This document shows, in pieces, positions 7,422-9,676 of a DNA stretch of 17,667 bases. This DNA comes from an uncultured Eubacteriales bacterium. Its GTDB lineage: Bacteria; Bacillota; Clostridia; Oscillospirales; Oscillospiraceae. Each line of letters starts with the position of its first letter. The stretch's first letter is position 1. A program made the translations under genes and the position numbers. The stretch is from contig UQQF01000042.1 in NCBI GenBank assembly GCA_900543085.1, positions 1 to 17,667 of the forward strand, given 5' to 3'. Under the pieces are notes generated by a model, which saw nothing but the letters and a program-made list of their open reading frames with translations, was not told the DNA's origin and did no database searches.

Positions 7422-7513
7422 GGAGATGTCGCGTAGTTGGTCGAGCGCGCACGATTGGAAATCGTGTAGGGGTCAAAAGCTCCTCGAGAGTTCGAATCTC
7501 TCCATCTCCGCCA
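7422..7513 (+). tRNA. tRNA-Ser (anticodon GGA)
   Basis: A class II tRNA with a long variable arm. The acceptor stem GGAGATG (7422-7428) pairs with CATCTCC (7503-7509), followed by discriminator G and an encoded CCA (7511-7513). The anticodon stem CACGA/TCGTG encloses the loop TTGGAAA, with anticodon GGA at 7457-7459, reading UCC and UCU. The variable arm is about 18 bases and the T arm shows GAGAG-TTCGAAT-CTCTC. It has its own promoter and terminator. No integrase or attachment duplication was found beside it. Confidence 0.97.
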
Positions 7514-7514
7514 A

Positions 7515-7549
7515 AAGGCCGGGACACTTTGTGTCCCGGCCTTCTTTTT
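7515..7549. terminator. Terminator after tRNA-Ser, shared with the serpin gene
   Basis: A perfect 13-bp stem (7515-7527 with 7531-7543) has a TTT loop and is followed by CTTTTTC on the plus strand. It begins one base after the tRNA CCA. The same hairpin lies 21 bases past the serpin stop on the minus strand, so it probably serves both convergent units. Confidence 0.9.
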
Positions 7550-7564
7550 CATTCTGCGCCGCTC

Positions 7565-9019
7565 TCACGCGGGGTCGTTCACCACGCCGGTGAAAAGCGG
7601 CAGGCTGTCGCCGGTGGTGATGGCGTAGATGAACGGCCGGTCGAGGGTGAAGTCTATCTCCTCCTCCGGCGGCATACCGGCGCCGGCGTTCGCTATCACC
7701 GTGTACGCCGCGGCGGTGACGCCCTCCTCGTCTATGGCCACGCGCGCGCCGTGCACGGCCTGGGAGACGAAGACGCCGTCCATGTCCGTCATGGGCGTGA
7801 AGTCGCCGGCCACAGGGTCAAAGACGTCCGTCACGCCCAGCGCCTTCAGAGCGCCCGTGAGGTCAAACTGGCTGGCCACGTCGAACTTGGGCACGGAGAA
7901 GTTTATCCTCGGGCGGTACACATCCTCCCAGCCCTCGCTGTCGAGCAGCAGCGACATATATTCGCCGCTCGCGAGCACCTCGTCCACGCTGACGCCCTCG
8001 TCGGGGAGTATGAACCACATGAAGCCGTCGTTGTGCAGCGCGCGGCTCACCGCGCCGAAGTTCTCGCCGCGATAGTACGTGCCCACGCCGCTCTGGTGCA
8101 TGAACTCCGCGGTCACGTCGCCGTCCGGCGTGTGGAACGTCTCGCGGGTATTCGCGCTCTCGCTGAATTCGTCCACCCACTTTGCGCGGAAATAGACCGT
8201 CGTGGCGAGGGCGAGCACGGTCTCCGCGCTCAGCTCTATGTCCCCGATCTGGTCGCTCAGCAGGCCGCCGGTCTGCTCGTTCAGCCAGCTTTGCAGCGCG
8301 CGGTTGAGCTCCGCGCTGCCCATCTCGCCGCTATAGCTCGCGGCGTAGTAGTTCTCTGCCAGGGTGTCCAGCGTGTCCCGGTCAAAGCTCACGTACTCGT
8401 TCAGCCAGACGGAGGCGGCGAGGATGCTGGACGTCACGCCGTCGTCGATGTAGCTGGCGTTCCAGATGTCGTTCGCCTGCCGCCGGAGCGATTCAATGCT
8501 GTCCGCCCCCAGCAGGGCGAGTATCTGTTCGCGGCTCTCCCCGCCGGTCAGCTCGGCGAGCATGGCCAGCGCCATGTAGACGTTCAGCGGCGAGCAGGCC
8601 GCGTTCCCGCTCCCCGCGCCGGAGAGGAGCTGCCCCGTGATAGCCGTGAAGTAGTCCTCCAGCTCCCCGGCATAGCCGGAGGCGTCCGGCTTCGCGCGCA
8701 TGTCCTCCCACCAGGCCTCGTAGTCCTCGCTGTAGGCGTCCGAGTCGAACTCGCCGTCCTCGGAGAAATAGTTCTCCTCCCTCGGATACGCGGCCGTGTC
8801 CGGGTACACCGGCTCGCTTATGGCGTAGGCGCTCGTCCCCCGGCCGCCGGGCAGGGCGAAGTAGCCCGCCGCCATCGCAACGGCGAGCAGCGCCGCGATG
8901 GCGCCGAACCAGAACCGCCGCCGGGCGCGCCCGGGTTTGAGGCTGCGCTCCTCCGCGTCCTCGATCTGGTCGTCGCGGATGTCGCCGATGGCCTCGAAAA
9001 GCTTCTCGCTGTCTTTCAT
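7565..9019 (-). CDS. Membrane-anchored serpin with anti-sigma-like N-terminus
   Basis: 484 residues. Residues 1-35 (KLFEAIGDIRDDQIEDAEE and a basic patch) resemble the cytoplasmic start of clostridial membrane proteins encoded after ECF sigma factors. One membrane segment (about 36-57) follows, then an acidic Tyr/Asp/Glu-rich linker (about 68-118) and a complete serpin domain (about 119-482), placed outside the cell. Serpin landmarks are visible: NAACSPLNVYMALAML, AKWVDEF preceded by ATTVYF, MHQSG, INFSVPKFD and DRPFIYAI near the end. The reactive-loop hinge EEGVTAAAYTVIA (431-443) has the small residues expected of an inhibitory, inserting loop; P1 is probably in the Ala-Gly-Ala-Gly stretch (445-448). 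The start ATG has AAGGAG 7 bases upstream and overlaps the sigma gene stop by 4 bp. The serpin call is firm; the anti-sigma role is inference. Confidence 0.9.
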   Translation of the reverse strand: MKDSEKLFEAIGDIRDDQIEDAEERSLKPGRARRRFWFGAIAALLAVAMAAGYFALPGGRGTSAYAISEPVYPDTAAYPREENYFSEDGEFDSDAYSEDYEAWWEDMRAKPDASGYAGELEDYFTAITGQLLSGAGSGNAACSPLNVYMALAMLAELTGGESREQILALLGADSIESLRRQANDIWNASYIDDGVTSSILAASVWLNEYVSFDRDTLDTLAENYYAASYSGEMGSAELNRALQSWLNEQTGGLLSDQIGDIELSAETVLALATTVYFRAKWVDEFSESANTRETFHTPDGDVTAEFMHQSGVGTYYRGENFGAVSRALHNDGFMWFILPDEGVSVDEVLASGEYMSLLLDSEGWEDVYRPRINFSVPKFDVASQFDLTGALKALGVTDVFDPVAGDFTPMTDMDGVFVSQAVHGARVAIDEEGVTAAAYTVIANAGAGMPPEEEIDFTLDRPFIYAITTGDSLPLFTGVVNDPA

Positions 9020-9570
9020 ATTGTCGCTCCTTCCGCTTCAAGATAGGCTTTCAGCCGCCGCCGGAGGCGGAGCATACGCTGCGTGAGCTGCTTGGCCGTG
9101 CAGCCGCACTCGCGCGCCAGCTCGGCCACGCCCTCGCCGTGCCAGTAGCGGCGGACGAACAGGGCACGCTCACTCGCCGTCAGGGTGTCGAGCCACGCGC
9201 TGATAAGCTCTGAGAGGCGGCGGCGCTCGACAAGCTCGTCCAGGCTCACGCGCTCGGGCACGCAGTCGTCCAGCTCGCTGAGCAGCACCTCGGCTCCGCC
9301 GCGCTTTTGCGCGTGCTCGCGCCGGTAGCGGCTGACGGAGATGTTCCGCGTCAGCCTGCCCAGGTAGGTCTTCAGCGAGCGCGGCCGCTCCGGCGGGATG
9401 GCCGTCCACGCCGCGTGCAGCGCGTCGTTCACGCACTCGTCCGCGTCCTCGCCCACGCCCAGCAGGTTCATGGCGATGCGCCGGCAGTACGCGCCGTACT
9501 TGCGCTGCGTCTCCGAGACGGCCGCCTCGTCGCGCCGGTTATAAAGCTCTATTATCGCCTCGTCGTCCAA
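9016..9570 (-). CDS. ECF-type RNA polymerase sigma factor
   Basis: A 184-residue sigma-70 family factor of the extracytoplasmic-function type. Region 2 runs from about 10 to 90 (YGAYCRRIAMNLL, DADECVNDALHAAW, SLKTYLGRLTRNISVSRYRR); region 4 from about 122 to 178 (LDTLTASERALFVRRYWHGEGVAELARECGCTAKQLTQRMLRLRRRLK). No extra C-terminal domain is present. A GTG opens the frame at 9579, but the AGGGGGTGA ribosome binding site overlaps it and lies 8 bases before the TTG at 9570; the family's usual beginning (DDEAIIELY) also favours TTG. It overlaps the serpin gene by 4 bp (ATGA), so the two are coupled and likely form a regulator/partner pair. The regulon is unknown. Confidence 0.92.
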   Translation of the reverse strand: MDDEAIIELYNRRDEAAVSETQRKYGAYCRRIAMNLLGVGEDADECVNDALHAAWTAIPPERPRSLKTYLGRLTRNISVSRYRREHAQKRGGAEVLLSELDDCVPERVSLDELVERRRLSELISAWLDTLTASERALFVRRYWHGEGVAELARECGCTAKQLTQRMLRLRRRLKAYLEAEGATI

Positions 9571-9588
9571 CGCCCTCACCCCCTCGCT

Positions 9589-9620
9589 TTATAAGTCGCA
9601 GTTTGAAGCGAAATGTTGCC
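9589..9620 (-). promoter_or_regulatory. Candidate promoter of the sigma-serpin operon, possibly autoregulated
   Basis: On the minus strand GGCAACATTT (9611-9620) precedes TTATAA (9589-9594), with 17 bases between AACATT and the -10. An AAC-containing -35 element is typical of ECF promoters, so autoregulation is possible. The transcript would have almost no leader and start within the ribosome binding site, which lowers confidence. Confidence 0.3.
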
Positions 9621-9642
9621 CTCCGGGCGCAAAGGTTTTAAA

Positions 9643-9676
9643 AAAGCCCCGTCCTCGGCTGCGAGGGCGGGGCTTT
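9643..9676 (-). terminator. Terminator of the thiI operon
   Basis: AAAGCCCCG (9643-9651) pairs with CGGGGCTTT (9668-9676), and an inner CCTCG/CGAGG stem closes a 4-base loop. On the minus strand the stem runs into a T tract (TTTTTTAAAA). It begins 14 bases after the stop of the last operon gene. Confidence 0.9.

Follow-up and report, generated by a model that had tools for sequence, protein, structure and literature searches.

According to the available text of the papers cited here, lysozyme triggers RsiV, the inhibitor of sigma-V, and is in turn inhibited by it (PMC5014341); RsiV is cut by signal peptidase at a site of the A-X-A type and then by RasP (PMC9044953; PMC6066255), and its membrane part belongs to DUF4179 (PMC6066255). 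The locus described below resembles the SigV/RsiV systems of Bacillus subtilis and Clostridioides difficile in that a membrane anti-sigma factor carries a hydrolase-inhibiting ectodomain (both putative in our case). The difference lies in the ectodomain, which here is a serpin; neither a DUF4179-type region nor a lysozyme-binding ectodomain was matched by Pfam in the serpin protein at E 0.1. SigI/RsgI is another related system, and its outside domains are exchangeable. In Clostridium thermocellum, as far as the available text goes, several membrane anti-sigma factors of this kind sense different substrates and are cut in the membrane, and their N-terminal part is freed (PMC12203970). The sigma factor of our locus is, in contrast, an ECF sigma factor, and its partner has a putative protease trap as ectodomain where RsgI has a carbohydrate sensor. 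No RsgI-type match was obtained at the N-terminus of the serpin protein with Pfam or NCBIfam.

On the side of the serpins, the siropins of Eubacterium siraeum inhibit elastase-like proteases (PMC8201313, PMC6718151), and siropins and tengpin share with the protein studied here the serpin fold and a hinge of the inhibitory type. The available text of those two papers describes gut serpins as secreted and names no sigma factor in connection with them; the word sigma is used nowhere in two serpin reviews, and its four uses in the siropin paper refer to a reagent supplier. No description of a serpin-ECF sigma pair was found in the literature searched, which does not establish that none is in print. 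What appears to be new is a serpin ectodomain in a probable case of ECF sigma/anti-sigma signalling, and the pairing is real and widespread.

The window, that is, the whole stretch of DNA analysed, comprises 17,667 nucleotides of contig UQQF01000042.1 from an uncultured Eubacteriales bacterium. An earlier note, made from the letters of this DNA, had described a complete ECF sigma gene overlapping by 4 bp the gene for a single-pass membrane serpin, and this arrangement was confirmed (Table 1). The open frame of the sigma gene extends to a GTG at 9579 (9016-9579, minus strand), and the TTG chosen in the note lies where the start of the relatives falls. Pfam recognises Sigma70_r2 (37.3 bits, cut-off 24) and Sigma70_r4_2 (26.5 bits, cut-off 25.7), the TIGR02937 sigma70-ECF model gives 70.4 bits (cut-off 42.9), and the 184 residues hold sigma2 and sigma4 domains only, the composition that defines ECF (group IV) factors. 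The same 4-bp overlap (a gap of -4) was found in 69 of the 92 adjacent sigma-serpin pairs of relatives in the locus set and the genus set taken together.

Table 1. Coordinates of the operon and its surroundings in the window.
Feature	Position	Strand	Remarks
ECF sigma factor gene	9016..9570	-	TTG start 9570, stop at 9016; 184 aa
Membrane-anchored serpin, putative anti-sigma	7565..9019	-	484 aa
ATGA stop/start overlap	9016..9019	-	4 bp
Cytoplasmic N-terminal module A, within residues 1-30	8930..9019	-	module HMM
Membrane segment, residues 39-56	8852..8905	-	hydropathy
A-Y-A, residues 64-66	8822..8830	-	just past membrane segment; possible signal-peptidase site
Serpin domain, residues 130-483	7571..8632	-	Pfam match, fold
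Reactive-loop hinge EEGVTAAAY (P17-P9)	7703..7729	-	best conserved of ten regions compared
Reactive loop P8-P4'	7667..7702	-	P1-P1' = A447-G448 by ungapped count from hinge
-10-like element TGCGACTTAT	9591..9600	-	23 nt before TTG start
-35-like element CAACAT	9613..9618	-	
Hairpin followed by T-run	9641..9675	-	parts operon from upstream gene; seen in sequence, absent from hairpin listing
Terminator-like hairpin	7515..7543	.	operon end / opposing tRNA-Ser gene; from hairpin listing for + strand
tRNA-Ser (GGA)	7422-7513	opposite to operon	hairpin between tRNA and operon end

Relatives of the serpin were surveyed at several scales. A protein search yielded 4618 serpins at E ≤1e-5; the best 120 of these 4618 homologues were examined, and 102 of them have the N-terminal module described below. 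A scan of genome contigs detected at least 80 loci with related serpins. Among the 80 loci listed, which contain 84 serpin ORFs, the serpin lies directly behind an ECF gene in 60 cases, four ORFs are second copies that lie 1.5-2.1 kb downstream of one, and 20 have none. Of the 42 genomes in the genus to which one relative belongs, 37 harbor a serpin, with 55 matches: 38 immediately follow an ECF gene, 14 lie farther down the same operon, one has no ECF gene, and two are fragments in which adjacency is not judgeable. A lack of conserved adjacency in related genomes, which the earlier note had named as a refutation, is thus not what the counts show. In an even draw across the phylum, 75 of 398 genomes contain a serpin, and 4 of the 82 ORFs examined adjoin a sigma gene, a count that leaves out 17 partial rows as well as the rows of G004 and G018 (counted in the genus set); in addition, a frame resembling a sigma gene lies 0.7-1.7 kb upstream in L261, L263 and L277, and L261 has a further, weak one at 157 bp. 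Judged from these counts, sigma coupling is the mark of one serpin subfamily, common within it and rare elsewhere. A viral origin of the system was also considered and discarded: seven stretches with the pattern were found in viral contigs, none of which encodes a relative.

The N-terminus of the serpin protein is charged and basic, ahead of one hydrophobic segment, and by the positive-inside rule we take the protein to be N-in/C-out. It shares with functionally defined anti-sigma factors that it is encoded with its sigma and has a predicted inside-facing N-terminus (basic residues before one membrane segment). No known anti-sigma family was matched above cut-off at this N-terminus in Pfam, which gives the serpin only, or in NCBIfam. 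The protein scores 15 bits with NF038083 (cut-off 100), and three of eight relatives match the NF052375 anti-sigma model at 13.5-16.8 bits (cut-off 100).

Relatives of the sigma factor (E 1e-10) number two to nine each in 13 of the 15 genomes holding the system, and where the closer ones (score ≥140) have a non-serpin neighbour, this protein begins with a short stretch of the same type. An HMM of this stretch, module A, was built from the N-termini of 29 non-serpin ECF partners. It detected all 62 sigma-A serpins, among them that of the window, at 9.6-37.8 bits, and none of the 20 sigma-less ones (no match, or 0.3 bits at most); the N-terminal module is thus shared with other ECF partners. The 29 non-serpin partners (L081-L130), whose genes overlap that of the sigma by 4 bp in 24 cases, have the same kind of module and belong with the same sigma family, and they differ in that their outside parts are not serpins; none of ten scanned reached a Pfam cut-off, and no family name was found for them. 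From the sequence comparison, the module is a general feature of ECF partners, and serpins are one of many ectodomains found with it.

Serpins are not confined to sigma A. A second ECF type, sigma B, precedes serpins bearing another module (RYKKANEGIHAPEELKE), and a third sigma/module type with serpins, the RDIINMFDHVDPETLAETDL type, was found at L278, L279 and L281; Pfam confirmed regions 2 and 4 in sigma B, for L146 and L158, as well as in the third type, for L278 and L279. Four adjacent sigma genes in the 80 loci listed were labelled B, and two of these, which are cut by contig ends (L003, L035), were relabelled A by their module. A tree of 121 rows, the window included, was examined with these labels; it omitted the two ORFs of L161, a locus on the contig that also holds L079, the distant serpins of L131-L138 (score <200) and a partial ORF at L068. 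With module A called by HMM and module B by a regular expression written after seeing the sequences, a module was present in 92 of 92 sigma-adjacent serpins and absent from 28 of the 29 others, the lone exception being a tandem copy in L023. On the starred branches, seven independent pairs could be formed: both traits change alike in six and one shows no difference (p 0.031). When only labels A and B are considered, the tree needs three changes, and the starred branches force at least two for B versus the rest. These changes, together with the existence of several sigma types, indicate that serpins were joined to sigma-coupled anchors more than once.

On visual inspection, most sigma-less serpins look like lipoproteins or exported proteins, and in three loci (L029, L046, L060) they have kept an anchor-like segment without the module. 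Within L001-L130, no frame was matched by both HMMs as a sigma-serpin or sigma-module fusion, and no sigma tail longer than 19 residues was seen. Amphipathic helices in the module were set aside as a weak candidate, as shuffled sequences scored as high in 2-60% of cases. Individual proteins show further peculiarities. P0038 carries two head-to-tail copies of the N-terminal module; in L031 and L068 long Glu/Gln/Arg-rich or Asn/Ser-rich repeats are found between module and membrane segment; and P0060 begins like the sigma factor and passes directly into the serpin anchor, as though a single deletion had removed sigma and module.

Divergence of the 24-residue module was compared with divergence of the sigma factor by Mantel analysis of 60 of the 62 sigma-A pairs (L003 and L035 were left out). 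The correlation was r 0.81, with a partial value of 0.73 given the serpin domain; the value of the module was reached in none of 2000 permutations and in none of 48 equally long windows of the serpin (best 0.36). Covariation was also found within two sigma subsets, with partial values of 0.59 (n=33) and 0.68 (n=27). An exchange of sigma and module as one DNA piece could also yield covariation. However, simple linkage is disfavoured because the correlation drops to 0.01 in the gap between module and membrane segment, next to the module; the other neighbouring segments gave 0.25 (membrane), 0.07 (after the membrane) and -0.06. Since covariation and joint absence both support matching between the two, module and sigma very likely form a cognate pair, as far as their sequences can tell. 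A contact site on the sigma factor was sought by window-wise covariation and not retained, as no sharp peak appeared (partial values 0.38-0.67, the best from alignment column 60).

The upstream regions of the sigma genes also share bipartite elements of the ECF promoter type. TGTCA-N17-CGAC is found exactly upstream of 13 of 32 window-type sigma genes (three at most in eight block shuffles), and the window carries the variant CAACAT + TGCGACT, which is not the commonest -35 form. In the other sigma-A set, of 35 genes, the best element pair occurs in six at most (shuffles ≤3); the window was counted in both sets. GCAAC-N16-GGGT precedes 26 of 30 sigma-B genes (shuffles ≤4). Kinship may explain part of this conservation, most for sigma B, whose genes belong mostly to one genus. 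Because bipartite promoter elements are shared upstream of the sigma genes, it is quite likely that the operon is autoregulated by its sigma.

Genome scans with the strict sigma-A patterns returned matches at their own operons only, six of six in 14 genomes and two of two in 42, with a sigma gene behind each. Reversed controls gave three matches in the 14-genome scan and two in the 42-genome scan, and eight of the 14 genomes had no strict match although all hold the system; a wider sigma-A regulon is for these reasons possible. The sigma-B pattern produced 37 matches in 28 of 42 genomes and none in the control. By coordinates, 20 of them lie at sigma-B serpin operons, one before another sigma-B gene and 16 elsewhere; ten of the latter were inspected, and four precede a frame that by eye is uridine-kinase-like (L204, L213, L225, L229), a possible second target of sigma B.

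The outer part of the protein is a full-length serpin by domain and by fold. The Pfam Serpin match has an E of 9.5e-58 (196.6 bits, cut-off 27) and covers model positions 13-370 of 370. An AlphaFold2 model built from 48 sequences (mean pLDDT 77.6) shows a confident serpin fold in the body, with pLDDT <50 for residues 1-62 and for most of the reactive loop (438-442, 444-452). The 50 Foldseek matches listed are all serpins, two of them titled Pso p27, with TMt 0.74-0.88; tengpin, PAI-1 and antithrombin are among them.

In the 62 sigma-A serpins, mean pairwise identity is 81% in the hinge versus 57% in the body and 51% in the loop. Small residues occupy P12-P9, as in inhibitory hinges, with the exception of P9, a Tyr, which is larger than usual. 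A Tyr at this place is unusual, but the position faces outward in the usual numbering. By ungapped count, P1 is small (Ala/Ser/Gly/Thr) in 57 of the 62 (Ala-Gly in the window), which suggests elastase- or subtilisin-like proteases as targets. Sigma-less relatives retain the same hinge.

Directly past the membrane segment, a stretch of the form YAIS...YP shows 61% identity and still 55% in sigma-less serpins. AlphaFold2 places it inside the serpin body (strand 65-68), and it is possible on the basis of this model that it links loop insertion with the anchor. Because sigma-less serpins keep it too, the stretch must be at least partly structural. An AxA motif no more than 20 residues from the membrane segment was found in 42 of 62 sigma-A serpins, 6 of 30 sigma-B serpins and 6 of 20 sigma-less serpins; a signal-peptidase site was dropped as a general feature, the motif not being general among relatives.

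Altogether, the serpin protein is probably both a membrane-bound regulator (an anti-sigma factor) and a product of the autoregulated operon. The interpretation in the earlier note is supported in part: its sigma/anti-sigma pair has gained from adjacency, from the module shared with other ECF partners, from covariation, from joint absence and from the promoter elements found ahead of many of the operons. The pairing of the genes is real; that the module, or the serpin protein as a whole, regulates the sigma negatively is likely. Belief and doubt are evenly balanced as to whether the locus encodes a self-regulated pair of ECF sigma and membrane anti-sigma in which the serpin ectodomain is both trap and trigger. 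For the trigger role taken singly, doubt slightly prevails.

With a little more reserve, we tentatively propose a one-shot protease sensor, in which suicide trapping of an extracellular protease from the host or a rival, relayed via the anchor, would free the ECF sigma, and the sigma would remake the spent serpin; such a sensor would have evolved by the joining of serpins to sigma-coupled modules of at least three distinct types. In the trap-and-trigger account given above, the cytoplasmic module of about 25 residues would hold the sigma factor at the membrane. A protease attacking the surface would be trapped by the serpin and its loop sprung, as the conserved hinge suggests. The sprung serpin would then expose the anchor to site-1 and site-2 cleavage, by analogy with RsiV, and the freed sigma would transcribe its own presumptive promoter, giving more serpin. 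For a sensor and an inhibitor united in one protein, RsiV provides a precedent.

The alternative that fares best keeps module and anchor as anti-sigma factor and makes the serpin a tethered protective product, the signal being something else, such as envelope stress, another ligand or a cut in the linker. We consider this account possible, if rather doubtful. The earlier note had offered a protective output of a self-regulated operon as its second option, and this option has come to have as much support as the sensor. In L131-L137 (seven of the 55 genus matches), sigma A is followed by a non-serpin membrane protein of 290-299 aa and then by a distant lipoprotein serpin, encoded by a separate gene. 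The middle proteins carry module A (16.0-34.5 bits) with a 4-bp overlap in seven of seven; that of L134 gave no Pfam match above cut-off, and no PDB match at E 0.001 was found for its model (pLDDT 73.5). Seven tandem sigma-B loci encode a second serpin without module. The unchanged hinge of sigma-less relatives also speaks for the serpin as output, and so does the restriction of the strict sigma-A pattern to the serpin operon in the 14 genomes, read with the matches of its reversed control and the genomes without any. On the other hand, serpins are found on three sigma/module types, and on the very protein that is placed to sense for that sigma, while a pure output could remain a separate gene, as it does elsewhere. 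Sister and tandem operons show, at the level of gene order, the serpin as output; both roles can be envisaged for the fused form.

In the tandem loci (L152, L160, L161, L164, L166, L142 and L143), all seven second serpins replace the hinge glycine by Lys, while five of the seven first serpins keep the glycine. The replacement is perhaps a division of labour, perhaps decay.

That the module is instead a positive partner or chaperone of the sigma, or a membrane tether that does not inhibit, we judge improbable. Association, covariation and joint absence would suit such a partner too. Against it, promoter elements lie ahead of the sigma gene and a single-pass membrane gene lies behind, mostly with the 4-bp overlap. 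A sigma gene followed by one for a single-pass membrane protein, with the promoter ahead, is the typical order of ECF/anti-sigma operons. Finally, neighbours without functional link, or chance adjacency, could be invoked from the phylum-wide draw, in which most serpins are not beside a sigma gene, but recurrence in related genomes, covariation and the joint absence of module and sigma make this explanation barely credible, and chance adjacency was rejected.

The protease-sprung switch is a testable hypothesis, and named strains carry the system: records with it include Flavonifractor sp. AGMB03687 and An112, Pseudoflavonifractor phocaeensis An507 and Cuneatibacter sp. NSJ-177. Beyond the serpins, the locus points to a large group of such partners of ECF factors among the Clostridia of the gut, with a sigma-linked module of about 25 residues and varied outside domains. 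If the switch is real, it would provide a physiological role for prokaryotic serpins, a role that is still to be elucidated according to the available text of a review (PMC8201313). Gut commensals would notice proteolytic attack, by proteases that may be elastase-like to judge from the small P1, and would answer it with the same inhibitor that noticed it.
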